Shown here: positions 13,536 through 32,524 of the stretch, in pieces
Position numbering within the stretch: the stretch's first letter is position 1
Layout of the letters: each line of letters begins with the position of its first letter
Assembly (NCBI GenBank): GCA_947490615.1
Contig: CANLHK010000004.1
Location: 186,001-250,000 of the forward strand
DNA from: Planctomycetaceae bacterium
GTDB taxonomy: Bacteria; Planctomycetota; Phycisphaerae; Phycisphaerales; SM1A02
Direction: 5' to 3'
Length of the DNA: 64,000 nucleotides
The notes under the pieces: model-generated
Databases searched by the model: none
What the model was told of the DNA's origin: nothing
What the model saw: only the letters and a program-made list of their open reading frames with translations
Position numbers and translations under genes: made by a program

Positions 13536-15410
13536 ATGCAGTTTCCCGCGAAGCGATGGGTGATGACGGAGCCACGAGTGTCGAGCGATCTTCGCGATTC
13601 CCTCGTCGATGGCGGTGATTCGTCGCGCAGGGCGCCACGGGTTCATGGCGAGTCGATCGTCGATCGACTGCTCGCGATGCGTGGCATTCCTGCGGGCCCT
13701 GCGCGCGACGCGTTCCTTGAACCGCGGCTCACCCACTTGCGCCATCCGCGCTCGATGCACGGGATGGTCGACGCGGCGGCAGCGATTTGCGAGGCGGTGC
13801 GCGCGCGCAAGTGCATCGCCGTCTACGGCGACTATGACGTCGACGGCGTGATGTCCACCGCGATCGTTTGGCACATGTTGCGCACGCTCGACGGGACGCA
13901 AGGTGGCAAGCTCGATCTGCGGACCTATGTCCCGCACCGCATCGATGAGGGCTACGGTCTCAACGCCGAGGCGCTGCGCGCGCTTGCGGCGGAGGGCGTC
14001 GAGGTTGTCATCACCGTCGACTGTGGCGTTGCGGCGTTGGTTGAAGCGCGACTCGCCCGCGAGTTGGGTCTTGAACTCATCATCACCGATCACCACGAGC
14101 TCGCGGCCAGCGGAGAGGTGCCCATCGCGCGCGCCGTGGTTCATCCGCGTCTCCCTTCATGCGGCGAGTTGAAGGACGCGCCGTACGGTGAACTCTGCGG
14201 CGCAGGGGTGGCGTGGAAACTCGCGTGGATGCTCGGCGAAACTTGGTGCGGCAGCGGCAAGCAGCCCGAGGTGTTTCGCACGCGGCTGAAGTCGTTGTTG
14301 CCGCTTGCTGCCGTGGGCACCATCGCCGATGTCGTGCCGCTGTGCGATGAGAACCGCGTCCTCGTTGCGCGTGGACTGCGGGAACTCGGCGCCACAGGCA
14401 TCGTCGGCATGGACACGCTTCTTGACTCTGCCCGCGTCGATGGACGCAGCGCCGATGCGGAAAAGGTCGCGTTTCGCCTCGCCCCGCGCATCAATGCTTG
14501 CGGACGCATGGACCACGCCAAAGAGGCGATCGAGTTGTTCACGACTGCCGACGCAGCGCGCGCCGACGAGATCTGCGCCATGCTCGGAGATCTCAACGAG
14601 GAACGCAGGAAGCAGGAGCGCGCGATCTTTGATCAAGCACTGGCGAAGCTCGCGCAACAAGGTGGTTCGTCCAAGCCGCGCGGCATCGTGCTCCATGACG
14701 AGAAGTGGAACCTCGGCATCGTCGGCATTGTCTGTTCGCGGCTTGTTGATCTCTACGCCTGCCCTGTTGTGCTCATCACCAGCAACAAGGATGGCTACAA
14801 GGGCAGCGGTCGCAGCGTGCATGGCATCGAGCTCCATCGCGTGCTCGAAGCGTGCAGCGCGCACTTGTCTGGATACGGTGGGCACGCGATGGCCGCGGGC
14901 GTGAAGCTCGATGGCGTGGCCGAGATCGAGGCGTTTCGCGCCCGCTTCGTGGAAGAGGTGGATCGCCTGCTTCCTCGTCAGGACGCGCAGAAGCCACCAC
15001 TGGAGATTGAGTTCTCCTGCAACATCGCGGAGATCGCTTCGTGTTCGGTCGTGACCGAGATGGAGCGGTTCGCGCCGTTTGGTCGAGGCAACCGCCGGCC
15101 TGCGTTCTTGCTCACGGATGCGGTGGTCACGCAAACGCGCCTCTTCGGGAAGATCCCCGCGGGCGCACCGAAAGACGCGCTGCCTCCGCACCTTGAATTG
15201 GTGGTCTGCCAACGCGGCGCTGCGCAAGATCAATTCCTGCGCGTGCAATGGTGGGGCGGAGCGCCGCACGCAGCGTCGTTTGGCAAGGGTGTCTGCATCG
15301 ACCTCGTCGTCGAGGTCGCACTCAGTACCTATTCGCGACTTCCTGAAGTGGAAGCGAAGTTGATTGACCTGCGGCCGATTGTGCCCGCGCAGCTCACTGC
15401 CATGGCGTGA
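13536..15410 (+). CDS. recJ: Single-stranded-DNA-specific exonuclease RecJ
   Basis: 5'-to-3' exonuclease of recombination and mismatch repair, 624 aa (family about 570-600). DHH phosphoesterase motifs are visible: AVYGDYDVDGVMST at about residue 96, VITVDCGVAA, and IITDHHELA at about 183. The DHHA1 part carries GSGRSVHGIELHRVLEAC and YGGHAMAAGVKL. The C-terminal OB-type region (FAPFGRGNRRPAFLL) is intact. The ATG chosen (MQFPAKRW) has a -10 element 6 nt upstream; a second ATG 9 codons in is possible. Its 3' end overlaps the convergent kinase gene by 17 nt. Confidence 0.96.
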   Translation: MQFPAKRWVMTEPRVSSDLRDSLVDGGDSSRRAPRVHGESIVDRLLAMRGIPAGPARDAFLEPRLTHLRHPRSMHGMVDAAAAICEAVRARKCIAVYGDYDVDGVMSTAIVWHMLRTLDGTQGGKLDLRTYVPHRIDEGYGLNAEALRALAAEGVEVVITVDCGVAALVEARLARELGLELIITDHHELAASGEVPIARAVVHPRLPSCGELKDAPYGELCGAGVAWKLAWMLGETWCGSGKQPEVFRTRLKSLLPLAAVGTIADVVPLCDENRVLVARGLRELGATGIVGMDTLLDSARVDGRSADAEKVAFRLAPRINACGRMDHAKEAIELFTTADAARADEICAMLGDLNEERRKQERAIFDQALAKLAQQGGSSKPRGIVLHDEKWNLGIVGIVCSRLVDLYACPVVLITSNKDGYKGSGRSVHGIELHRVLEACSAHLSGYGGHAMAAGVKLDGVAEIEAFRARFVEEVDRLLPRQDAQKPPLEIEFSCNIAEIASCSVVTEMERFAPFGRGNRRPAFLLTDAVVTQTRLFGKIPAGAPKDALPPHLELVVCQRGAAQDQFLRVQWWGGAPHAASFGKGVCIDLVVEVALSTYSRLPEVEAKLIDLRPIVPAQLTAMA

Positions 15411-18400
15411 CGCGCAGTGCGCGCAGCAGGCCGTCGTCGCAGGCGAGCCAAAGGGTGTGCTCACTGTCCCACGCAAGGTCGCGGCACGAACCGCGCCATG
15501 CCGTGAGGACCTCTTGTTTGTTGGCAACATCCCAGACACGCACGGTGCCGTCGGTTGAAGCGCTGGCCACGCGGAGGTTGTCGGGGCTCCACGCGATGGC
15601 GTGCACGGGTCGGCGGTGATTGGGGAGTTGTGCGACGAGCTGATAGGTTCGCGCATCCACGATCGCGAGCTCGCTCGCGCGCGCGACGCTTCCAATGGCG
15701 ACAAGTTTTCGGTCAGGCGAGAGCGCGCCGCAACTGGCGTACTCAATCTCACGAACGAGGGCTCGCTCCTCCATCGAACTCGTATCAAGCAGACCCGACA
15801 GGCCCGTGACGCCGCGCGGGAGGACAACCTCGTTGCGTCGAGCCGTTTCCAAGGCGACCGTTGAGCCTCGCTTGAAATGGTGCGTGCTCCAAACGACGGA
15901 GCCATCCGCAGTCGAAAGCGCGAGCATCTGTTCGTCCTCAAGCCGAACGGTCGTCGTCGCGCCGCGGTCGAGGGAGCCGACGCGCGTCGCGGGCGATGCG
16001 GTTTCGACGCTGCGGAGAATCGAGCCGTCGCTTGACAGCCACGCGACGCCACCATCGTGAGCGACCGCGAGTTCACCCGAGGGAAGTGCGTAGACCGCGT
16101 TGGCGTGCAGCGATGAAGCGAGCAGGACGGGCGTGCTGCCTCGCTCTGTCGAGAGCGCGAAGAGACCGCCGTTGGCTGTGGTCGCGTAGATGCGGTCTTT
16201 GTGCTGCGACACCGTCAAGATGGCCGAACCATCGCACGCGAACTCCTCCGCGCGCGACGACGCGTGGGAGTCGAACACCTTGACATGCGCGCTGAAGGTG
16301 CCTGAGGCGATCCACTTTCCGTCGGGGGATGGAGCCGAGTGCCAGACTTGGCTATACGCGCCCGCGATGGTGGCAAGGTGCGCGCCCGTTGTTGCGTCAA
16401 GACGATCGACCGACTCAGCCCACGCGGAGGCAATCACTTCGCGGCCGTCGCTCGAAAACTTCACGCCGCGGTAGTTCGACTCGACCCCAGGCAGATGCCA
16501 GAGTCGCTCGCCTGAAGCAAGCTCAAACGCGAACACTCCTGCGAGGCAGACCGCGACCGCGACTCGGTCGTCGGGCGAAATCGCGACAGCGCGGATCTGA
16601 TCCCCTGTCTGACCACTATTCCGACGCTCGGCGGTGAAGGACCAGAGTCGCGCTCCGTCATCGCTTCGAAACGCGGTGACTTCGCCGTCCATCGTGCCGA
16701 CGAGGAAGTGGCGCGCGTCTGCGGTGACCGCCACAGCGCCGACCGCTCCCGTGAGTGGCGGCTGCGCCGCAAATCCTCCGATGCGCTCAAGGGTGCTCGG
16801 ATCGATCTCTTGCGCGCCGCCAAGTTCTTCTGCAAAAAGTCGCGTGCGCGCAGCGTTGGACGCGAGATCGCTGCTCGCCTTGATCAAACCTTGCGCAACG
16901 ACCGAGCCCGACGCGTTGAATCGTCGCAAGGTTCCGTCATGGTAAAGCGCGATGGTGTCGCCATTGGCCATCATGATCACGCGCCACGCGGGCAGGAGAT
17001 TGGGCTCGGGCGTGCGCCAAAGTTCACGGCGGCGTTCAGCGTCGAGCACGCTGATGGAACCACTCGCAGCCACCGCGATACGAGTGCTGTCGAGTGACCA
17101 GTCAACGCAGTACACCTGCTGGCCAACGGCGTACGCGACCTCCCAAACGGTCTGATCGATTGCGCGTTCAAGCGCGTGCCATTCCCAACCGCGCAACGCA
17201 GGAGGCGCTTGCAGGAGCATGTCGTGTGCCGCGCTGGCATCGCCGCGATCGAGCATCGCACTGGCCGCGCTGAGCGACGCGACATACGCAGCCCAGTCGG
17301 CGCGATCGTGCTCTTGGCCTTCGCGTCGGAGGAGCACGAGCGAGACGATGAGCGCGCACGCAACGACAAGAAACACACCAAGGGCGGTGACGAGCCTCGC
17401 GCGATGCTTTCGCGTCACGCGGACAAACGCGTCCCACTCGCTGTCGGGTTGCGCGATGAGCGTTTCGCCTGCGAGTACGCGGCGCAATTCGTCGGCGAAC
17501 TCCAAGGCGCTTCGATAGCGACGATCGGGCTCGCTCGCGAGCGCCTTGTGCAGCACGGCGTCGGTCGCTGCGGGAAGCGACGCTGCAAACGCAGGTCCGT
17601 GCGCTGCGGCTGCAAGCGGCGCGATCGGCTGCGCAGTCCCATGGAGCAGATGTTCGAGATGCGCGGCAATCGAGGGATCGCCACCGTCAAAGGGCGGATG
17701 ATCGCTGAGTAAGTCGTAGAGCAGTGCGCCGAGACCCCAGACATCGCTGCGCGTGTCGATGGTGCGACCGCGCGCTTGCTCAGGACTCATGTACGCCAGT
17801 GTGCCCATTGGTCCTTCGGTCGCGGCGGTCACCGTCGAGTCGCGCACCGCGGCGATGCCGAAGTCGATCACCTTCGGCGCGCCGTCATTGCCGACGATCA
17901 CATTGCCAGGCTTGAGATCGCGGTGGATCACGCCCGCGCGATGGGCATGCTCGACGGCGTCAGCGATCGTCGCGATGAGCAGGATGCGCGCGCGCGCCGT
18001 GAGTTGTTGGCGGTTGGACCACTCGGTGAGCGGCAGCGCGTTCTCAATGAGCTCCATCACGATGTACGGGCTCTCGCGTTCGTCCTCACCCATGCGCTGC
18101 GAGCCCGCTGCGTAGACGCGCGCGATGTTGGGGTGGTCGAGTCGCGCGAGTGCTTCGGCTTCGACACGAAGTCGGCGCCGCGCGCTGGCGCTGAGACGCT
18201 CGCGGCGCACGACTTTCACTGCCACGCGTCGACGGGGAAAATCCTGCGTCGCCGAGTAGACCGCGCTCATGCCGCCGTAACCGAGCAGTCCATCGATGTT
18301 GCACCCAGCGATCGTGCTTCCGACAAGCGTCGCGGGGGAAGCGGAGAACGGTTTCACCTCTGTGGTTTGCGATTCAGCGTGATAGCCCAGAAGCGACGAC

Positions 18401-18534
18401 ACTTCGCTCGCAAGCGTCGGATCCTGACTGTGCAGCCGGGCGAGAAACGCGCCGCGCGACAGCGTGGGGAGATCCGCAGCCTCGGCGAAGGCCTCTTGCA
18501 CGCGGTCAGGATCAAGTGGGGGCTCGGGCTCCAT
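15394..18534 (-). CDS. Transmembrane Ser/Thr protein kinase with C-terminal beta-propeller (WD40-like)
   Basis: 1046 aa. A short N-terminal region is followed by a complete Hanks-type kinase: GYGGMSAVY (85-93), VAVKVVRR with Lys107, HRDLKPGN (204-211), VIDFGIAAV with DFG at 224-226, and MSPEQARG. A single membrane segment (LVTALGVFLVVACALIVSLVLL, about 381-402) separates the kinase from some 600 residues of WD40/PQQ-like repeats, for example HRRPVHAIAWSPDNLRVASASTDGTVRVWDV near the end. The propeller would be extracytoplasmic and could sense a ligand. It lies 69 nt downstream of an ECF sigma gene on the same strand, the ECF/kinase pairing known from planctomycetes, so kinase control of the sigma factor is plausible inference. 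Confidence 0.93.
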   Translation of the reverse strand: MEPEPPLDPDRVQEAFAEAADLPTLSRGAFLARLHSQDPTLASEVSSLLGYHAESQTTEVKPFSASPATLVGSTIAGCNIDGLLGYGGMSAVYSATQDFPRRRVAVKVVRRERLSASARRRLRVEAEALARLDHPNIARVYAAGSQRMGEDERESPYIVMELIENALPLTEWSNRQQLTARARILLIATIADAVEHAHRAGVIHRDLKPGNVIVGNDGAPKVIDFGIAAVRDSTVTAATEGPMGTLAYMSPEQARGRTIDTRSDVWGLGALLYDLLSDHPPFDGGDPSIAAHLEHLLHGTAQPIAPLAAAAHGPAFAASLPAATDAVLHKALASEPDRRYRSALEFADELRRVLAGETLIAQPDSEWDAFVRVTRKHRARLVTALGVFLVVACALIVSLVLLRREGQEHDRADWAAYVASLSAASAMLDRGDASAAHDMLLQAPPALRGWEWHALERAIDQTVWEVAYAVGQQVYCVDWSLDSTRIAVAASGSISVLDAERRRELWRTPEPNLLPAWRVIMMANGDTIALYHDGTLRRFNASGSVVAQGLIKASSDLASNAARTRLFAEELGGAQEIDPSTLERIGGFAAQPPLTGAVGAVAVTADARHFLVGTMDGEVTAFRSDDGARLWSFTAERRNSGQTGDQIRAVAISPDDRVAVAVCLAGVFAFELASGERLWHLPGVESNYRGVKFSSDGREVIASAWAESVDRLDATTGAHLATIAGAYSQVWHSAPSPDGKWIASGTFSAHVKVFDSHASSRAEEFACDGSAILTVSQHKDRIYATTANGGLFALSTERGSTPVLLASSLHANAVYALPSGELAVAHDGGVAWLSSDGSILRSVETASPATRVGSLDRGATTTVRLEDEQMLALSTADGSVVWSTHHFKRGSTVALETARRNEVVLPRGVTGLSGLLDTSSMEERALVREIEYASCGALSPDRKLVAIGSVARASELAIVDARTYQLVAQLPNHRRPVHAIAWSPDNLRVASASTDGTVRVWDVANKQEVLTAWRGSCRDLAWDSEHTLWLACDDGLLRALRVTPWQ

Positions 18535-18603
18535 CGTGGATCACATCATGGATTGCATCACGGTCTCTCTCGCGTTCTTCATGCGGAAACCGCGCGCAGC
18601 GCC

Positions 18604-19224
18604 TCACACTTCTCGGGCAACTTCGCGATCCAATGCACGCCGAAGCCACGCACGAGCGAAGGTCCAGTCTTTTTCAGTGGTCGAGTCGCTCACGCCAAGG
18701 ACCTTGGCGGCGTCGATGTTGGAGAGCCCAAGCATGGAGCGCAGGCGCGCAACCTCCGCCGCGCGCGGATACTCGGCGTTGAGCCTCTCGAGGGCGGCGG
18801 GAAGTCCGTAGTCGGCAGCAACGCGGTAGTGGTCGGGGCTGCTGAGCTCACTCGCCACAAAAGTCAGCGGCAAAGGCGGCTTGCCACCGCCGCGCTTGAT
18901 GGCCTTGCGTGAGCGAGCGAGGTCAACCAACGCCTGTTCGCAGGCGCGGGCGATGGCGCCGAAGAAATGACGACGGCTCTCCCACGCTCCCGGCGGGTGG
19001 GAATGGACGCGGACAAAAATTTCTTGCACGAGCACCGTCGGGTGGAGATCAGCGTTGCACGCATGACCCGCGGCCTCACGCGCAATCGCAGTCGCCGCCA
19101 TCGCACGAACCTCCGCATACACCGCTGTCCACACCTCTTCCGCTGCGAGCGCCGCCACTGCATCAGCGCCAAGTGCGCGATTCAAAGTCGTGGTGAGCGG
19201 GAGCGGAAGGGGGAGCGCGGGCAT
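18604..19224 (-). CDS. ECF-type RNA polymerase sigma factor
   Basis: 206 aa. Region 2 is recognisable in LHPTVLVQEIFVRVHS and the -10-recognition helix SRRHFFGAIARACEQALVDLARS. Region 4 carries a helix-turn-helix, LSNIDAAKVLGVSDSTTEKDWTFARAWLRRAL. The form (HPTxLVxEaf, tRhFFxxAArxMRrxLvdxAR-like, KDWxxArawL) is the planctomycete/acidobacterial ECF subgroup that usually sits beside Ser/Thr kinases. It has no anti-sigma gene next to it; the kinase gene follows instead. The upstream region contains a 12-bp palindrome (AGATCGCGATCT, 19242-19253) overlapping a possible -10 (TAAGAT) and is shared with the divergent exported-protein gene. Confidence 0.88.
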   Translation of the reverse strand: MPALPLPLPLTTTLNRALGADAVAALAAEEVWTAVYAEVRAMAATAIAREAAGHACNADLHPTVLVQEIFVRVHSHPPGAWESRRHFFGAIARACEQALVDLARSRKAIKRGGGKPPLPLTFVASELSSPDHYRVAADYGLPAALERLNAEYPRAAEVARLRSMLGLSNIDAAKVLGVSDSTTEKDWTFARAWLRRALDREVAREV

Positions 19225-19284
19225 AGGGAGCGACCAAAGTCAGATCGCGATCTTAGAGAACTTTCCATTTCCCTCTGTGGGAAA

Positions 19285-19311
19285 GAAACCCCAGGCACGC
19301 CAAGAGTCGAC
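19285..19311 (+). promoter_or_regulatory. Candidate ECF-type promoter before the beta-helix protein gene
   Basis: GAAACC, 15 nt, then GTCGAC resembles the general ECF consensus (GGAAC near -35, GTC near -10) and would start transcription just upstream of the AGGAG ribosome binding site. It lies in the region divergent from the ECF sigma gene. A TTTCCC-TCTGT-GGGAAA inverted repeat (19268-19284) abuts it. This is a motif resemblance only. Confidence 0.25.
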
Positions 19312-19325
19312 ACAGGAGCGTTCAA

Positions 19326-21746
19326 ATGAAGCGCCATTGGCTTGCGGTTGCGATCGTGTGCGGATACTCGTTGGGTACAACGGTTTGCGCGCAGGTGACG
19401 AGGTATGTCGACAACAACTCGGGCGACGGCAACAACCCGCCGCCGAAGTCGGTTGTGTTTCAGACGATCCAGGAGGCGATCGATCTGTCCGTCGATGGCG
19501 ACACCGTCAAGGTGTATCCAGGCACGTACACCTCGACTGCAAGCGAAGTTGTGAACTTGCGCGGCAAGGCGATTGTGTTGGAGGCGGCGGTGCCGATGGT
19601 GGTGGGCAACTACGCGACCTATGCGACGATTTACGGACAAGAAGCTCGGCGGGGGATTGTCGCGACGGAAAATGAGACGGATGCGACGGTGGTGCGTGGA
19701 CTCCGCGTGTTCAGCTGCCGCGTAAACCTCGGCGCGGCAATGATCGTCATGAACGGAAGTCCTCGGATTGAGGGGATGTACTTTGAGGGGAACTTCGCAA
19801 CTGATTCGGGCGGAGCACTCCTCTTGATCGGGAGCGCCTCTGTCATCCAAGACTGTTTGTTTCAGTCCAACACGGCGATTGGAAAGGGCGGTGCCATCCT
19901 GAACTCGCAAGGATCGATCTTGGTGGATTCGTGCGAGTTTGCGGACTGCACTGCGGCGCGTGGTGGCTCGATATTCACTCAGGACGATGCATCGACAGTG
20001 TTGAACACGGTGTTTCGGAACGCCTTGCGCTCGGGCTGCTGCCTTGCGCAGACCTTCGGGCTAGGTGTGTACGCAAAGGACTCTCATATCGCGATTTCAG
20101 CTAGTCTCTTCAAGGATCTCCGGATCAGCGACTGTTGTGGTACGGGGCATTTCGGCGCAGGAATTGTCGTCCATGGTGCCGACGCAGACGTGTTAGTGTC
20201 GGGATGCCAGTTTCTCAATAACAGAATCGAGGGTGGTGGTGGTGGTCGCGGAGGCGCGATCGCAGTCGGTACGGATGCAGATGCGCGCGGCAGCGTCCGC
20301 GTTGTCAACTCGGAATTTCAGGACAACTACGCCAGTGCGGATGGCGGTGCGATTGCGATGCAAAGCGGGGATCGACTGGAGATCGATGGCGTCGGTGGCG
20401 CTCAAACACTTTTCAAGAGCAACTCCTGCGGTCGCCTCGGCGGCGCGATCTCCGTGAATGTCGATTGGAACCACCAAGGCACCTTTCTGCTCGATGATGG
20501 CGTTTTTGTAGAGAATTCAGCGATCGGCAATGGCACTGGCGGCGCAGTCTGGATCCGTCAGTCCAATGGGGGCCTCCGCGTGCTTACCGATTCGGTGTTC
20601 GTGCGTAACGGTGCCGCCGAGGGTGGCGCGCTGTACCTCGAGGGAACGAATTCGCTCAGCCAGATTGGTTCCACCGTGTACTGCGGCAACTTCTTGAGCA
20701 CCATCCGCGGCAGCTATTTGGATCTAACCAACAACTGCTTCACGGTCGATTGCAGCGACGCCAACGGGGACGCCTTTCCCGACAGTTGCGAACCCGAACT
20801 CGTCGACTGCAATGGGAACACGATCCCTGATCAGGAAGAGCTCATCGGCAACGACATCAACAACGACCAGATCCCTGACGACTGCCAGATCGGCGAGCTC
20901 GATTTCGACGGGCTCGAGAGCGAACTCGTCACGATGGACATGACGAGGATCCCGAACGAAAGTCCACTGCCAATCACGGCGCTCTGTTGGCGCGTCTACG
21001 CCAAGACGCGGCATCCCGATGCGTCGGTGATTTGCGTCTTCGGCAACGCAGCGCATTCGATGTCGGTTTCCGCTAGCGGTGGCTTCTACCAACATGGACA
21101 GGGCGGTGACACCGTCGAGTCAATCCTCTGTGGGCCGACGGGCGTGTTGCGCTACGACAGCTTCTTCACCATCGAAGCGAATTGCGCCCCCGAGTTCGAC
21201 CTGCTCGACCAGAACCTCGAGTCGGCGTTCAGTGGTTTCAACTGCTGCGGCAACTACTTCACCAACAACGGCGCGTACTTCGTCATGCCTGGCGCAGCAG
21301 GAAGCCAGGCTGGTTCGGATCAGCGGATTCTGTTGATGCAGGTGACGACCATGTCGGCGATCAAGCCTTCGGCTTCCATCAACCTGCTCGGGCGACACCA
21401 TCTGCAGAATCCCGACAGCAGCTGGAGCGAGTGGAATGCCTTCGGACTTGCCATTCCAGATCCGATCATGGTCGACTGCAACGGCAACGGCATCCATGAC
21501 TCCATCGAGATTGCCACTGGCCAAGTCGCCGACTCCGATCGCAATGGCTTGCCCGACAACTGCCAGCAATGTCTTGGTGATGTCGACAGCAACGGCGCCG
21601 TCGATGTCGACGACTTGATCGAAATCCTGGTTGCGTGGGGTGACCCGAACCCTGGCGCTGCGGATCTCGACGGCAACGGCGTGGTCAACGCGGCAGATCT
21701 GATCCAGGTCCTGGACGGCTGGGGCGCGTGTATCCAGCGGCCTTGA
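19326..21746 (+). CDS. Exported right-handed beta-helix protein with dockerin-like C-terminus
   Basis: 806 aa with a Sec signal peptide (KRHWLAVAIVCGYSLGTTVCA). It starts like parallel beta-helix proteins: RYVDNNSGDGNNPP, TIQEAIDLSVDGDTVKVYPGTY. Repeating rungs follow to about residue 470 (NSPRIEGMYF-like, CLFQSNTAIGKGGAI, DGGAIAMQSG). A Ca-binding linker (DCNGNTIPDQEELIGNDINNDQIPDDCQ) and a second globular region follow. The C-terminus has two dockerin-type loops (VDSNGAVDVDDLIEILVAWG and DLDGNGVVNAADLIQVLDGWG). AGGAG 7 nt upstream supports the start. The product should be extracellular or surface bound; polysaccharide binding is only a guess. Divergent from the ECF sigma gene and overlapping or abutting the next gene. 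Confidence 0.88.
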   Translation: MKRHWLAVAIVCGYSLGTTVCAQVTRYVDNNSGDGNNPPPKSVVFQTIQEAIDLSVDGDTVKVYPGTYTSTASEVVNLRGKAIVLEAAVPMVVGNYATYATIYGQEARRGIVATENETDATVVRGLRVFSCRVNLGAAMIVMNGSPRIEGMYFEGNFATDSGGALLLIGSASVIQDCLFQSNTAIGKGGAILNSQGSILVDSCEFADCTAARGGSIFTQDDASTVLNTVFRNALRSGCCLAQTFGLGVYAKDSHIAISASLFKDLRISDCCGTGHFGAGIVVHGADADVLVSGCQFLNNRIEGGGGGRGGAIAVGTDADARGSVRVVNSEFQDNYASADGGAIAMQSGDRLEIDGVGGAQTLFKSNSCGRLGGAISVNVDWNHQGTFLLDDGVFVENSAIGNGTGGAVWIRQSNGGLRVLTDSVFVRNGAAEGGALYLEGTNSLSQIGSTVYCGNFLSTIRGSYLDLTNNCFTVDCSDANGDAFPDSCEPELVDCNGNTIPDQEELIGNDINNDQIPDDCQIGELDFDGLESELVTMDMTRIPNESPLPITALCWRVYAKTRHPDASVICVFGNAAHSMSVSASGGFYQHGQGGDTVESILCGPTGVLRYDSFFTIEANCAPEFDLLDQNLESAFSGFNCCGNYFTNNGAYFVMPGAAGSQAGSDQRILLMQVTTMSAIKPSASINLLGRHHLQNPDSSWSEWNAFGLAIPDPIMVDCNGNGIHDSIEIATGQVADSDRNGLPDNCQQCLGDVDSNGAVDVDDLIEILVAWGDPNPGAADLDGNGVVNAADLIQVLDGWGACIQRP

Positions 21747-21757
21747 TGAGGTGCTCC

Positions 21758-23242
21758 ATGCGTGACCTCGCGTTCGTACTCGCATCCTGCGCGCTTGCGT
21801 CGCTGGCATTCGGTGACTCGGTGGAGTTGCCGACGCTGGTGCACTCACCGCAGTCGTCGCCATTCAATGTGCTCGGCGGCGACCTCGCGCTGACGACGCC
21901 AACCGTGTGCGTGGTCGGCGTGCGCGGCGCGGATGGCCTGGCACTGAACCAGGGCGCCGTCGAGAGTTTCGAATTGAGGTCTGACGGTTGGACCTACCTC
22001 CAACGGCTGCAGCCAAGCGAACTCGCAGCGGGCGATCAGTTCGGCGAGGCGGTCGCGGGCGACGCGCAGTGGATGGTTTCCAGTGCGACTCGCCACGACG
22101 CAGCGGGCGTTGATGCGGGAGCCGTGTGGATCTATCGCCGCGAGGGGAGATTCTGGCAAGGAGCGCAACAACTGCTCCCGGGCATGGGGTCGGATGGTGC
22201 GCGATTTGGTTCAGCCCTCGCTCTTTCTGGAAACTGGCTTGCGATCGGCTCACCGACGGCGAGTTCGGGCGGAGTCGTGACGCTCTACCAACTCGTCGGC
22301 TCGACCTGGCAGTTTGATCGGACCATTGCCAATCCGAGTCCCGCGCAAGGCGATCGATTCGGCGATGCGCTCGCGCTCACGAGCGATCGGCTTGTCGTGG
22401 GAGATCCGTTTGACGACACGCAGTCCATCGATCGCGGCGCTGTGTTCGTCTACGAGCACGCGGGTCGATCGTGGACGCTCGGCGCGACGCTGGCTCCGTC
22501 GAGCAGTTCGGATCGGCAGTACTTCGGCCGTTCGCTCGCGCTCGGCGCTTCGCGACTTGCCGTGGGTGCCAACGGCGCGGACGCTTCAAGCGGAACGAGT
22601 GCGAGCGGAATGGTGGAGGTCTTTGATCTCATGGGCGGCGTCTGGCTGCGCAGCGCAGAACTTCGTCCCGACACGGCTGTGGTCGGAGGTCACTTTGGTT
22701 GGGATGTTGCGATGGAATCATCGACGATCGTCGTCGGCGAACCTGGATTTGGTGCGGGCAGTGCGGTCCCGTTGGTCGGACGCTCGCATGTGTTCGCGCA
22801 AACCGCCGGTGGGCTCTGGACTCTTGAGTGGAGTCTCCAGGCCGAGTTTCCTGCGGCGCAGGATGTCTTGGGCACTTCAGTCGCGTATGCGAGTGGACGG
22901 CTCGTCGTCGCTGCACCGGGACGATCGGGACAGGCGGGCGCCTTGATGTCGATCGATCTCAATGCCGACTGCGATGGCAACTCGATCTCCGATCTGCTTC
23001 AAGTCGCAGCCGACCCCGCGCTCGACTGCAACGGCGACCTTGTGCTTGACGCCTGTCAGCCCATCAACTGCGACTGCCCGTCCGACCTGAACGGCGACGG
23101 CGTCGTGAGTTCGGCCGATCTCGCAGTGCTCCTCGCGCAGTGGGGCAACTACGGTCAGGGCAGCGCCGACATGAACGGCGACTTCGAGGTGGATGCGTTT
23201 GACCTCGCCCTCCTCCTCGCCAGCTGGGGACCTTGTCCCTAA
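21758..23242 (+). CDS. Exported FG-GAP-like beta-propeller protein with dockerin-like C-terminus
   Basis: 494 aa with a signal peptide (RDLAFVLASCALASLAFG). The body is built of seven-bladed-propeller-type repeats of the FG-GAP kind: AGDQFGEAVAGD, DGARFGSALALSGNWLAIG, QGDRFGDALALTSDRLVVGDP, DRQYFGRSLALGASRLAVG, VGGHFGWDVAMESSTIVVGEP. The C-terminus carries DCDGNSISDLLQ-type Ca loops and a dockerin-like pair (DLNGDGVVSSADLAVLLAQWG, DMNGDFEVDAFDLALLLASWG). I chose the ATG with GAGGTG just upstream; an ATG 4 codons earlier overlaps the previous stop (TGATG). Probably co-transcribed with the beta-helix gene. Confidence 0.88.
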   Translation: MRDLAFVLASCALASLAFGDSVELPTLVHSPQSSPFNVLGGDLALTTPTVCVVGVRGADGLALNQGAVESFELRSDGWTYLQRLQPSELAAGDQFGEAVAGDAQWMVSSATRHDAAGVDAGAVWIYRREGRFWQGAQQLLPGMGSDGARFGSALALSGNWLAIGSPTASSGGVVTLYQLVGSTWQFDRTIANPSPAQGDRFGDALALTSDRLVVGDPFDDTQSIDRGAVFVYEHAGRSWTLGATLAPSSSSDRQYFGRSLALGASRLAVGANGADASSGTSASGMVEVFDLMGGVWLRSAELRPDTAVVGGHFGWDVAMESSTIVVGEPGFGAGSAVPLVGRSHVFAQTAGGLWTLEWSLQAEFPAAQDVLGTSVAYASGRLVVAAPGRSGQAGALMSIDLNADCDGNSISDLLQVAADPALDCNGDLVLDACQPINCDCPSDLNGDGVVSSADLAVLLAQWGNYGQGSADMNGDFEVDAFDLALLLASWGPCP

Positions 23243-28891: not shown

Positions 28892-30016
28892 ATGTCCGTC
28901 GATCTCTCTCCACCCAATCTCCCCGACTATCCCGTTGATCGGACCGTCGCGGAGATTGCCCGTTCGTGGACGGTCGATCCGCGCATTCCCGCGACGATTC
29001 CAGGCTTTGACGCGCCGTTCTTCCAGGCTGGACTTGCTGGCTACAGCGACGGCGCCATGCGCCTCGTCGCCCGCAGGCACGGCGCGCCGTTCTGTGTGAC
29101 CGAGGCGCTCCTTGATCGCACGCTCATCAATGGCGGCAAAGGTCGGCGCAAAGAAGATCCTGATCTGCTCGCCACCGAATGCGGCATGGGCGAGATCGAG
29201 GACAACATCGCAGCTGGTCTTGATGACCACCCGATTGCTGGCCAAGTCATGGGGTCTCACCCTGAAGAGATGGCGCGCGCGAGCGAACTCTTGGTCAAGA
29301 TGAACTACGACGTCATCGATGTGAACCTCGCCTGTCCAGTCAAGAAGATCAAGAAGTCGAATCGCGGCGGCCACTTTCTCGCCTATCCCGACGATGCCAT
29401 CGAGATCCTCAAGGCGGTGCGCGCCGTGGTTCCTGCGGCGATTCCGTGCACGGTCAAGCTCCGTCGAGGCTTCGACGACACCCCCGAGATGGCCGAGCGC
29501 TTCGAGCAGATCTTTGCTGCGACCTACGAGCTTGGGTATGCGTGGGCGGTGGTGCATTGCCGCACCGTGGCGCAGAAGTACCTCGGGCCTTCGAAATGGG
29601 AGTTTCTCCGCGATCTTTGCGTGCGACATCCTGATCGAGTGATCTTTGGCTCGGGCGACATCTGGACAGTCGACGACATCTTTCGCATGCACGCCTACAC
29701 AGGCGTCCATGGGGTGAGCGTGGCGCGCGGCTGCATCGGAAACCCGTGGATCTTCACGCAGGCCCGTGCGTTGATGCGTGGAGAGCCTGCGCGGCAACCC
29801 ACGATGGCCGAGCAGCGTCACGCGCTGGAGTCGCACTTCGACCTCGCGATGCAGCTTCATGGCGAAGACGCAGGCGGCAAGCGCATGCGCAAGTTCGGCA
29901 TCAAGTTTGCCTCCCACCATCCGCAGGGCGATGAGGTCAAGCGCGACTTCATCGATTGTGAACGGACACGGGATTGGAAGTCGACGCTCGCCAAGTGGTA
30001 TCCGGCTGTTCCGTGA
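28892..30016 (+). CDS. tRNA-dihydrouridine synthase
   Basis: FMN-dependent enzyme that reduces uridines in the tRNA D-loop; 374 aa. The barrel begins APFFQAGLAGYSDGAMRLVARRHGAPFCVTEALLD. The catalytic Cys is in DVNLACPVKKIKKSNRGG, with CTVKLRRGFDD and the FMN-phosphate region VIFGSGDIWTVDD and GVSVARGCIGNPWIF following. CPVKKI instead of CPx3KV sets it apart from E. coli DusA/B/C, so I give no subfamily letter. A TTG codon directly precedes the chosen ATG. Its last 68 nt overlap the convergent FG-GAP gene. Confidence 0.9.
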   Translation: MSVDLSPPNLPDYPVDRTVAEIARSWTVDPRIPATIPGFDAPFFQAGLAGYSDGAMRLVARRHGAPFCVTEALLDRTLINGGKGRRKEDPDLLATECGMGEIEDNIAAGLDDHPIAGQVMGSHPEEMARASELLVKMNYDVIDVNLACPVKKIKKSNRGGHFLAYPDDAIEILKAVRAVVPAAIPCTVKLRRGFDDTPEMAERFEQIFAATYELGYAWAVVHCRTVAQKYLGPSKWEFLRDLCVRHPDRVIFGSGDIWTVDDIFRMHAYTGVHGVSVARGCIGNPWIFTQARALMRGEPARQPTMAEQRHALESHFDLAMQLHGEDAGGKRMRKFGIKFASHHPQGDEVKRDFIDCERTRDWKSTLAKWYPAVP

Positions 30017-31622
30017 GTGACACGGGCGGTCGATAGAGCGCGACTCCTGGGCTTGGACCGAACGATTCTTCTTCGACATAGAGATGCCCGCACGCCGCGA
30101 CGCGCGCAGAAGTGGTTGCGTCTGAACTTTCGGCGCTTACAAACGCGAGGCTGATCGAGAAGAGCCCCATTGGTGTCAGCGCGGGCGCGAGGAGTGTCGC
30201 GGTGTGCGCGCCTGACCAACGCGCGTAGAGGTAGGCGCGGCCGCAGTCTTCGATGTCGCCTTCAGCTTCAGGTCCTGGCGCGTCAAATCCTGCTGCGCCG
30301 ACGAGAATGTCTGCACCGTCGATCGCGACCGATTGTCCGAAAGCGAGGCCTGTCATGCGATCGGGCGGACGGAGTTCCTGCGGCGGATTTGTCGGGTCTT
30401 CAAGATCGAAGATCCACGCCTTGCCGCACGCGACGCCATCGATCCGTCCGCCGAACTCGCCGACGACGAGCGTGGTGCCATCGAGTGCCAACGCAGCTCC
30501 GAACGAGCCGAAGGATGTCGCTGTGGGCGACCAGATCGTGCGCTCAAAGACAAAGCGACCGTTCGCAGCGCGCGCAAAGAGATGCACCGCGCCAGCATCG
30601 GGCGTGGTGATGCCGCCGTTGCTTGCGCTGTCCGACGAGTTCTCACCGGGCGCGCCGACGGCAATCCACGCCTCGCCGCACGCTACAGCGGAGCCAAACC
30701 ATGCTGCGCTTTGCGGTGCCGGCGCGCAAAGCGTCTGCGTGTGCGACCACGGGTGAGTTGTCAGATGGCGCAGCAGCGGGGCGGCCGAGTCGGGCGAGGC
30801 TTCGCGCGGTTGGGTGTTGCTGTACTCAAAGAGGTTGATGCACCCAGCGTCGGTGAGGCCGCCGAGGTCGCCGAGGTCGTGTCGTCGCGCTGCCACGGCC
30901 AGGAGGTCACCCGACGGCGCGAAGTCCACAGCGCTGCCGAACTCAGCGCCGACTTGTGGACGAGGCGCTGTGATGGTCGCGATCGGCTTCCATAAGAAAC
31001 TGCCGTCAGGCTCGGGACGGAGCTCAAAGAGGTCCACGCAACCCTCGAATCCACCTCCCGACTCGCCGAGCGCGTCGAAGTAATCCTCGTGATGTATTTG
31101 AAGGCGATCCACAAGCGTCGCGCGATCCGCGCCGACGGCGGCTGTCCACCGCGCCATCGTTTGTTCGCGTGCAGTGCCGCGTCCGAGCGCGACGCTGCAG
31201 GCAAAGTGATCACCCACGCGCGTGGCATTGAACTCGCCCTCGGTGGTGCGCACGACTTGACCCTTTGAGTCGACCGCGAAACGGAGCAGGGTGACGGAGC
31301 CTGGCTCAAGCGCCGCATCGCCGTCGGTCGGGGCAGCGATGAGGAGCCGATCGTGATGCGACGCGACGCTCTCGCCAAAACGAAGGACCTCGGGTCGCGG
31401 CGGAGCAATCACCTCGCTCGGATCGACCGTCGGCGGCGCCGTCGCAGCGGTCGGGAGTGCTGCAGCGGCAAGCAGCGAGGCCGCGCACAGCGCCGCAAGC
31501 TGCGCGAAGCCGCGAGAGCGCTTTCGCGGATTTCGCCCACGATTCCTGCTGATGTTCCGCGCATGAGCGCGCTGGCTCGACTCGATCCGACCGTCGAACG
31601 GCTCACGACTTCGCTGTGGCAT
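29949..31622 (-). CDS. Exported FG-GAP-like beta-propeller protein
   Basis: 557 aa. A basic N-terminus of about 40 residues (RNRGRNPRKRSRG) precedes a hydrophobic core (FAQLAALCAASLLAAAALP), so it is a long signal peptide or an anchor. The rest is a propeller of FG-GAP repeats: VLRFGESVASHHDRLLIAAP, VGDHFACSVALG, VGAEFGSAVDFAPSGDLLAVAA, SAAWFGSAVACGEAWIAVGAPGEN, FGSFGAALALDGTTLVVGE, LAFGQSVAIDGADILVGAAG. Unlike the other FG-GAP protein here it lacks a dockerin tail. AAGGAG lies 6 nt before the chosen ATG; the much longer upstream frame overlaps the divergent hydrolase gene and is a shadow. Confidence 0.82.
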   Translation of the reverse strand: MPQRSREPFDGRIESSQRAHARNISRNRGRNPRKRSRGFAQLAALCAASLLAAAALPTAATAPPTVDPSEVIAPPRPEVLRFGESVASHHDRLLIAAPTDGDAALEPGSVTLLRFAVDSKGQVVRTTEGEFNATRVGDHFACSVALGRGTAREQTMARWTAAVGADRATLVDRLQIHHEDYFDALGESGGGFEGCVDLFELRPEPDGSFLWKPIATITAPRPQVGAEFGSAVDFAPSGDLLAVAARRHDLGDLGGLTDAGCINLFEYSNTQPREASPDSAAPLLRHLTTHPWSHTQTLCAPAPQSAAWFGSAVACGEAWIAVGAPGENSSDSASNGGITTPDAGAVHLFARAANGRFVFERTIWSPTATSFGSFGAALALDGTTLVVGEFGGRIDGVACGKAWIFDLEDPTNPPQELRPPDRMTGLAFGQSVAIDGADILVGAAGFDAPGPEAEGDIEDCGRAYLYARWSGAHTATLLAPALTPMGLFSISLAFVSAESSDATTSARVAACGHLYVEEESFGPSPGVALYRPPVSLTEQPDTTWRASTSNPVSVHNR

Positions 31623-31783
31623 CTCTTCTCCTTGATTGGATGTGCGTGCAAGGCGGGAGCCTACTCCGTCGGCGAGGCCCGTTTTGTGATCACTCCATTT
31701 CCCACGAAGTTCACGAGAAACTTTCGGTGCCTCTTTCAGCATCACGATTCCGCTGCAGCAGACACGGCACGGCGCAGCGTTCG

Positions 31784-31789
31784 TAAACT
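31784..31789 (+). promoter_or_regulatory. -10 element TAAACT, leaderless promoter for dienelactone hydrolase gene
   Basis: TAAACT ends exactly 6 nt before the ATG. No Shine-Dalgarno sequence. Confidence 0.6.
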
Positions 31790-31795
31790 CTCCAC

Positions 31796-32524
31796 ATGGC
31801 AATCGCTGCGCGCACGGGACTCGTGAGTTACTTCGATGGTTCGACCGAGCTCGAGGGCTACCTCGCGATCCCCACCGAGAGCGCGAAGGCTCCGCGACCG
31901 ATTGTGCTTGTGGTCCACACTTGGACGGGCCTCGATGAGTTCGCGCGCGCCAAGGCGCACATGCTTGCGGAGCTCGGCTACATCGCGTTGGCCGTCGATG
32001 TCTACGGCAAGGGTCGACGCGGAACCACGCATGCAGAGTGCGGTGCGTTGATGACACCGTGGACGGAAGATCGCGGCGCGCTTCGGGCGCGACTCCTTGC
32101 TGCGGTCGCCGCTGCCAAGACCATTGAAGGCGGTGATGGCGATCGACTTGGTGTGATCGGCTTCTGCTTCGGCGGTCTCTGCGCGCTGGATCTCGCGCGG
32201 GCCAATGCACCAGGCTTGCGTGCAGCCATCGCCTTTCATGGACTGCTGCATCCTCCGAATCTCGGCGCGCAGCCGTCGATCAAGGCCAAGCTGCTTGCGC
32301 TCCACGGATTCGACGACCCGTTGGTCCGACCTGAGGGCATGGTGGCCTTTGAAGAGGAGATGACCGCAGCCCATGCCGATTGGCAAGTGGTCGCGTACGG
32401 CGCGACAGGGCACGCCTTCACCAATCCAATGGTGCATGATTACGCGAGCGGAATGTTCTACAGAGAGATCATCGCGGATCGTGCCTTTGCCTCGATGCGC
32501 GCGCTGCTCGCGGAAGCGCTCTGA
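31796..32524 (+). CDS. Dienelactone hydrolase family protein
   Basis: 242-aa alpha/beta hydrolase, cytoplasmic. The nucleophile is Cys124 in IGFCFGGLCA, the acid is Asp in LHGFDDPLV (173/174) and the catalytic His is His206 in YGATGHAFTNP. This Cys-Asp-His triad is that of dienelactone hydrolases. The N-terminal VVHTWTGLDEFARAKAHMLAELGYIALAVDVYGKG is typical. True substrate is unknown: no chlorocatechol genes are present, so it is likely a general esterase. Monocistronic, divergent from the FG-GAP gene. Confidence 0.9.
   Translation: MAIAARTGLVSYFDGSTELEGYLAIPTESAKAPRPIVLVVHTWTGLDEFARAKAHMLAELGYIALAVDVYGKGRRGTTHAECGALMTPWTEDRGALRARLLAAVAAAKTIEGGDGDRLGVIGFCFGGLCALDLARANAPGLRAAIAFHGLLHPPNLGAQPSIKAKLLALHGFDDPLVRPEGMVAFEEEMTAAHADWQVVAYGATGHAFTNPMVHDYASGMFYREIIADRAFASMRALLAEAL

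Follow-up and report, generated by a model that had tools for sequence, protein, structure and literature searches.

An ECF sigma factor gene that adjoins a kinase gene and diverges from genes for secreted proteins raises two questions: how the sigma factor is controlled, and whether the neighboring surface-protein operon is among its targets. An earlier note on this DNA had read the genes as one regulatory module, in which the sigma factor drives the surface operon from an ECF-like promoter. We analyzed the locus within a 64-kb window, that is, the whole stretch of DNA under study, which belongs to a source genome of 3.26 Mb in 28 contigs. Genomes are referred to by handles, the source genome being G000.

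Gene content of the locus

The coordinates and domains of the three genes named in the earlier note were confirmed (Sigma70_ECF; Pkinase and WD40; Chlam_PMP/Beta_helix with a weak dockerin match). Together with an FG-GAP gene they form a four-gene block that fits exactly between recJ and a UDPGP-family gene (Table 1). On the minus strand, the ECF sigma gene is followed directly downstream by the kinase gene. The sigma gene and the beta-helix gene are divergent and are separated by a gap of 101 nt (19225-19325), and the start of the FG-GAP gene overlaps the stop of the beta-helix gene by one base (TGATG). No anti-sigma gene was found among the scanned neighbors (recJ, kinase, surface pair, UDPGP, and PhoU), as the note had stated for the ECF gene.

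Table 1 Positions of the features discussed, numbered along the 64-kb window.
Feature	Position	Strand	Evidence
Transmembrane Hanks-type Ser/Thr kinase, 1046 aa	15394-18534	-	Pkinase 1.7e-41 and WD40
ECF sigma factor, 206 aa, PF07638 / TIGR02999 (Sig-70_X6)	18604-19224	-	Sigma70_ECF Pfam E 3.9e-32; TIGR02999 127.0 bits
Thr63 codon, region 2.2 (HPTVLVQE), predicted phosphorylation site in place of acidic DAED	19036-19038	-	invariant in 32/32; EcfP/EcfK position
AGATCGCGATCT palindrome	19242-19253		exact match
TAAGAT as candidate housekeeping -10 of the sigma gene (31 nt before its start)	19250-19255	-	promoter scan of 8 sigma genes
TTTCCC-N5-GGGAAA inverted repeat	19268-19284	.	present; rare in window; not conserved
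GAAACC-N15-GTCGAC, proposed ECF promoter, judged non-promoter	19285-19311	+	genome counts; upstream regions of orthologues and dockerin genes
Shine-Dalgarno AGGAG of beta-helix gene	19314-19318	+	read from sequence
Secreted right-handed beta-helix (PMP-repeat) protein, C-terminal dockerin-like repeat	19326-21746	+	Chlam_PMP 8.3e-13, Beta_helix 3.3e-8, Dockerin_1 0.014
Secreted FG-GAP protein, C-terminal dockerin	21746-23242	+	FG-GAP_2 5.7e-34, Dockerin_1 1.5e-7

The dockerin_GC model (NF041540, cut-off 29) scored 29.6 bits on the beta-helix protein and 30.3 bits on the FG-GAP protein in the genome scan, and 24.4 and 26.7 bits, respectively, in the protein scan. When the two scans were merged, about 92 dockerin-bearing frames were found in the source genome. 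The domain scan also placed planctomycete cytochrome and PSD1 domains among the window genes. Three other ORF pairs in the window were considered as sigma-kinase pairs and rejected; they correspond to RNase R, gyrase B, an FG-GAP protein, and unmatched ORFs. A further gene for an FG-GAP_2 protein, which gave no dockerin match, lies near the block (29949-32210, minus strand).

The sigma factor and its kinase

The sigma factor barely passed the curated cut-off of TIGR02999 (126.15 bits), and this model matched all nine clade members at 1e-5 or better. Relatives of the sigma factor (1e-15 or better) occurred in 87 of 121 genomes. Orthologues with 50-68% identity were found in nine genomes, in each of which a kinase orthologue lay directly downstream. 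Across 78 regions processed with a crude gene caller, a kinase gene stood next to 47 of the 55 sigma genes and within four genes of 48. A scan of further genomes gave 23 loci, with one close orthologue (L214).

In region 2.2, the sigma factor has HPTVLVQE in place of the DAED-LVQE of ordinary sigma factors. Thr63 was invariant among the 32 aligned homologues. The first DAED position was occupied by Q, H, S, or T in 29 of them and by Glu in three, and the fourth position was acidic in none. Going by the descriptions in PMC8999054 and PMC13147305, Thr63 corresponds exactly in position to the phosphorylated threonine of EcfP (STTA) and to Thr51 of EcfK (QATE). In EcfP, the third residue of STTA is described as being phosphorylated by the neighboring kinase, which restores the charge needed for polymerase binding (PMC8999054, PMC8103513). 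The loss of DAED and the invariant threonine at the EcfP/EcfK position thus predict direct activation by the kinase. By analogy with these systems, the kinase probably switches the sigma factor on by phosphorylation. It should be noted that EcfK, as described, has a further site in the linker besides Thr51 and remains functional as T51A (PMC13147305), so that a region 2.2 threonine need not be the sole site.

The earlier note had also proposed that the partner of the sigma factor is a transmembrane kinase with a propeller of about 600 residues, which agrees with the Pkinase and WD40 matches, the predicted membrane segment, and the AlphaFold and Foldseek results. The protein consists of N-terminal helices, a kinase domain (residues 78-355), and a double WD40 propeller (residues ~462-1040). 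A single transmembrane segment lies at about residues 384-402 in all ten orthologues, with four to six basic residues on the preceding cytoplasmic flank. The catalytic residues K107, HRD 204-206 (D206), N211, and DFG 224-226 (D224) were likewise invariant in the ten orthologues. The AlphaFold model (mean pLDDT 81.4, pTM 0.59) showed the kinase, a long helix, and then about 58 propeller strands from residue 462 onward, and its top Foldseek matches included tandem WD40 proteins such as AIP1.

The pair resembles described systems in which a sigma gene lies beside a Hanks-type kinase gene, namely EcfP-PknT of Vibrio parahaemolyticus and EcfK-PknS of Xanthomonas citri (PknS being described as transmembrane), both of ECF group 43. 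Like EcfP and EcfK as reported, the sigma factor has a threonine at the same region 2.2 position and has lost the DAED acids. In contrast to ECF groups other than ECF43, which are described as keeping DAED or a similar acidic motif (PMC8999054), the clade studied here lacks DAED. It also resembles the planctomycete groups ECF59, 61, 62, and 217, whose sigma genes are reported to adjoin Ser/Thr kinase genes and which are predicted to be regulated by phosphorylation (PMC8999054); these predictions are described as drawn from gene neighborhood (PMC8999054, PMC8103513). The kinase of the present pair differs from PknT and PknS as described in that a WD40 double propeller follows its membrane segment. 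This layout, an N-terminal cytoplasmic kinase, one transmembrane segment, and a periplasmic WD40 array, matches that given for Planctomycetota WD40 kinases in PMC11032199. The pairing with a sigma gene seen here is not part of that description.

Promoters and repeats in the intergenic region

The GAAACC-N15-GTCGAC string that the earlier note took for an ECF-like promoter before the surface genes was exactly present in the right orientation and stops 14 nt short of the beta-helix start codon. However, its GTCGAC half (19306-19311) is separated by 2 nt from the AGGAG Shine-Dalgarno sequence. Transcription usually starts 6-8 nt downstream of the -10 element, so a start site at that distance would cut the ribosome site. 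The genome contains two exact copies of the string, the second of which lies inside and antisense to an ORF that we take to be amidohydrolase-like. With up to two mismatches, there were 761 sites genome-wide versus 261 for a reversed control, and 17 sites in the window versus 8.2 expected; we attribute this excess to the frequent occurrence of GTCGAC in coding sequence.

The string was absent upstream of the beta-helix homologues of six genomes (G003, G011, G015, G004, G006, and G033) and from the divergent intergenic regions of G004, G067, and G032. Nor was it enriched upstream of the dockerin genes of the source genome, where it occurred at 11 of 69 genes (up to three mismatches) versus 6 in antisense and 6.6 in shuffled sequences. 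These 69 genes derive from the 80 frames (L134-L213) fetched from the 92 listed, the last 12 being left out; in 70 frames a start followed by a signal-like segment could be located, and the window's own gene was then removed. Hydrophobicity served as the rule for choosing the starts, some of which appear to be misplaced. On the basis of the genome counts and both sets of upstream regions, GAAACC-N15-GTCGAC was rejected as a promoter. Both outcomes, the lack of enrichment and the absence at orthologous loci, are ones that the earlier note had named as refuting its idea; they tell against the string as evidence, and a regulatory link by another route is still plausible.

One clear promoter signal was found for the dockerin genes, TTG-N19-21-TAnnnT, which occurred at 14 of the 69 genes versus 1.6 in shuffled sequences and 1 in antisense. 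Its -10 element often lies about 12 nt before the start codon. As the general signal of this genome's dockerin genes, it has the look of a housekeeping promoter whose transcripts are often leaderless. Upstream of the sigma genes, TAnnnT was found 12-15 nt before the start in seven of the eight genes scanned, versus 0.41 in shuffles, and a TTG at the right distance accompanied it in three of those seven. The exception was the window's sigma gene, which, unlike its orthologues, has TAAGAT at -31 only and no -35. The sigma genes of most orthologues have housekeeping-like promoters, although a second promoter may lie farther upstream, and constitutive expression of the sigma gene would fit post-translational control.

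Two inverted repeats in the gap had been pointed out in the earlier note, and both were exactly present. The AGATCGCGATCT palindrome overlaps the TAAGAT candidate -10 of the sigma gene, as the note had suggested. It was unremarkable in the window (1 found versus 0.45 expected, up to one mismatch) and was absent from the divergent gaps of the other five genomes compared. The TTTCCC-N5-GGGAAA repeat is rare by expectation (1 found in the window, 0.04 expected, up to one mismatch) and was not present in five orthologous gaps; it is a possible operator of some regulator. Two such inverted repeats within the 101-nt gap arose in 2.4% of mononucleotide shuffles.

The regions before the divergent genes of six orthologues yielded no conserved -35/-10 promoter of a non-housekeeping type. 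A search of the six divergent intergenic regions for shared spaced 4-mer/3-mer pairs gave nothing above shuffles; the best pair occurred in four of the six regions, a level that shuffles reached in 50 of 100 runs, with five of six reached in 2 of 100.

Linkage with secreted dockerin proteins

The same four genes lie together in the congener G015, on contig 16, arranged as here and beside an ORF that is presumably trpA-like. The recJ and UDPGP genes of G015 lie 1.1 kb apart on contig 45 without the block, so that the block occupies two unrelated sites within one genus. In G067, G031, G068, and G032, recJ adjoins the UDPGP-family gene with no module between them. In G011, recJ, kinase, sigma, and a divergent beta-helix gene are followed by the contig end. 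In G003, the surface pair (56% and 51% identity) lies between recJ and the UDPGP gene without sigma and kinase genes; conversely, the recJ side of G004 and of G005 carries sigma and kinase genes without the beta-helix/FG-GAP pair. Distant surface pairs were found in G006 and G004, and no sigma ORF was matched in the surrounding 12-14 kb. The link is thus not obligate, as congeners keep either the sigma-kinase half or the surface half alone.

The secreted neighbors of the sigma-kinase pair varied among genomes. The divergent gene of G004 encodes an RCC1-repeat protein with half a dockerin, G005 has a beta-helix gene on the other side of the kinase, and G032 has one dockerin gene divergent from the sigma gene and another convergent with the kinase gene. 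The dockerin gene of G067 is broken by two in-frame stops; we assume that its product was lectin-like (C-type lectin). G033, which represents another, distant genus, has sigma, two beta-helix dockerin genes, and kinase in this order on one strand with short gaps (L129, contig 104). In addition to the surface pair, the recJ-UDPGP gap of G003 encodes one more secreted protein, whose Ig_2 and dockerin matches fall below the cut-off. The place taken here by the sigma and kinase genes is occupied in G003, between recJ and the beta-helix gene, by an ORF of about 257 aa (L128:11787-12557, minus strand) on the same strand as recJ and the surface pair. It was considered as another sigma factor, a reading that was dropped because its one match, to HTH_AsnC, was weak and below the cut-off.

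We found an intact divergent dockerin gene, or its orthologue, beside the sigma gene in five of nine readable clade members versus 11 among 122 divergent partners used as control (p 0.0014 by Fisher test), and over all detected sigma genes in 7 of 26 (p 0.019); related genomes were counted as independent, which makes these p values optimistic. Outside the clade there was no significant excess (3 of 21 by recount; p 0.36 for a test on 3 of 22). The clade members were counted by hand. G000, G004, G011, G015, and G032 were positive, with G011 included as an orthologue whose gene is cut by the contig end, so that its dockerin is not visible; G005, G031, and G068 were negative. The broken gene of G067 was not counted as positive, and G007, whose contig starts inside the sigma gene, was left out. 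The gene caller had missed the sigma genes of G011 (L042), G067 (L044), G069 (L051), and G033 (L129), which were read by BLAST and by eye, and it had given a spurious divergent gene upstream of the sigma gene of G005. The association of the surface operon with this clade is real and goes beyond adjacency in a single genome. The module idea of the earlier note therefore survives in part: the linkage of sigma factor, sensor-type kinase, and surface genes stands above chance, and the promoter evidence does not hold.

Several explanations of this linkage can be compared. In a dockerin-rich genome with an insertion hot spot between recJ and the UDPGP gene, the two gene pairs could have landed side by side by chance. 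The abundance of dockerin frames, the extra secreted protein in the G003 gap, and the separate occurrence of each half in congeners are consistent with such an origin. However, the identical arrangement in G015, far from recJ and UDPGP, speaks against it, and the excess in the clade and the gene order in G033 would each need a separate coincidence; we regard chance as an unlikely explanation. The surface protein could instead act as the input, with the secreted dockerin/beta-helix protein docking on the kinase propeller or presenting a ligand to it, and being encoded nearby as a component of the sensor. The two dockerin genes between sigma and kinase in G033 would fit this, as would a partner that differs in family from species to species (beta-helix, RCC1, other dockerins, and the presumed C-type lectin) and is always secreted, as a ligand-binding accessory might be. 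However, in most orthologues the surface gene is divergent and outside the sigma-kinase operon, and a divergent surface gene is lacking in G005, G031, and G068; we regard an input role as rather improbable.

Direct reading of GAAACC-N15-GTCGAC by the sigma factor, at the beta-helix gene and at similar sites before dockerin genes, was the version of the earlier note. It can draw on the exact, correctly oriented string and on the surplus of near matches in the window. However, the absence of the string from the orthologous regions (G003, G011, and G015 beta-helix homologues; G004, G067, and G032 divergent genes), its lack of enrichment at the dockerin genes, and its closeness to the Shine-Dalgarno sequence leave this version very improbable.

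We favor a phosphorylation-activated ECF pair of one sensor and one sigma factor, with the surface operon as the best candidate target or partner, and give this view as a whole an even chance of being right. The sigma factor would be made constitutively from a housekeeping-type promoter and would be inactive, its region 2.2 being without the acidic residues through which a sigma factor holds on to the clamp of RNA polymerase. The periplasmic double propeller of the kinase may read an envelope or surface cue, upon which the kinase would phosphorylate Thr63 and thereby supply the missing negative charge. The active holoenzyme would then transcribe a small regulon, of which the divergent operon is the best candidate member, via some other promoter. 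Of this view, phosphorylation, the direction of signaling, and control of the operon are inferred. Support is best for the pair itself, a phospho-switched sigma factor and its kinase, which belongs to a known kind of system and here would have a WD40 sensor. That the sigma factor drives the surface operon is plausible. More tentatively, the four-gene block could be a relocating cassette that forms a self-contained circuit, in which a surface cue leads to phosphorylation of a constitutive sigma factor at Thr63 and this factor controls the adjacent secreted dockerin proteins or is itself gated by them; the sigma-kinase core would be kept and the secreted partner swapped between species.

The secreted dockerin neighbors differ from the T6SS genes described beside EcfK. 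They recall the dockerin/cohesin 'planctosome' of freshwater Phycisphaerae (PMC6461901), in that planctomycete dockerin proteins occur without an evident role in cellulose degradation. The planctosome is proposed to be a peptidase complex and is described without a regulator in the portion of PMC6461901 cited here, in which respect it differs from the sigma-kinase-linked dockerin genes of this clade.

Planctomycetes carry many sigma-kinase pairs, among which this clade is a compact case, with a single predicted phosphosite, a housekeeping-like sigma promoter, and, as the first candidate for a target or partner, the two-gene operon next to it. Its repeated linkage to dockerin genes provides an entry to the question of what is sensed by the WD40 propeller kinases of the phylum. 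Another sigma-kinase subfamily, found in the source genome as well, regularly has a gene for a small membrane protein (with TCNIDQRG... close to its start) ahead of the pair and in the same direction (L238, L240, L241, L243, L245, L246, L252, and L052).
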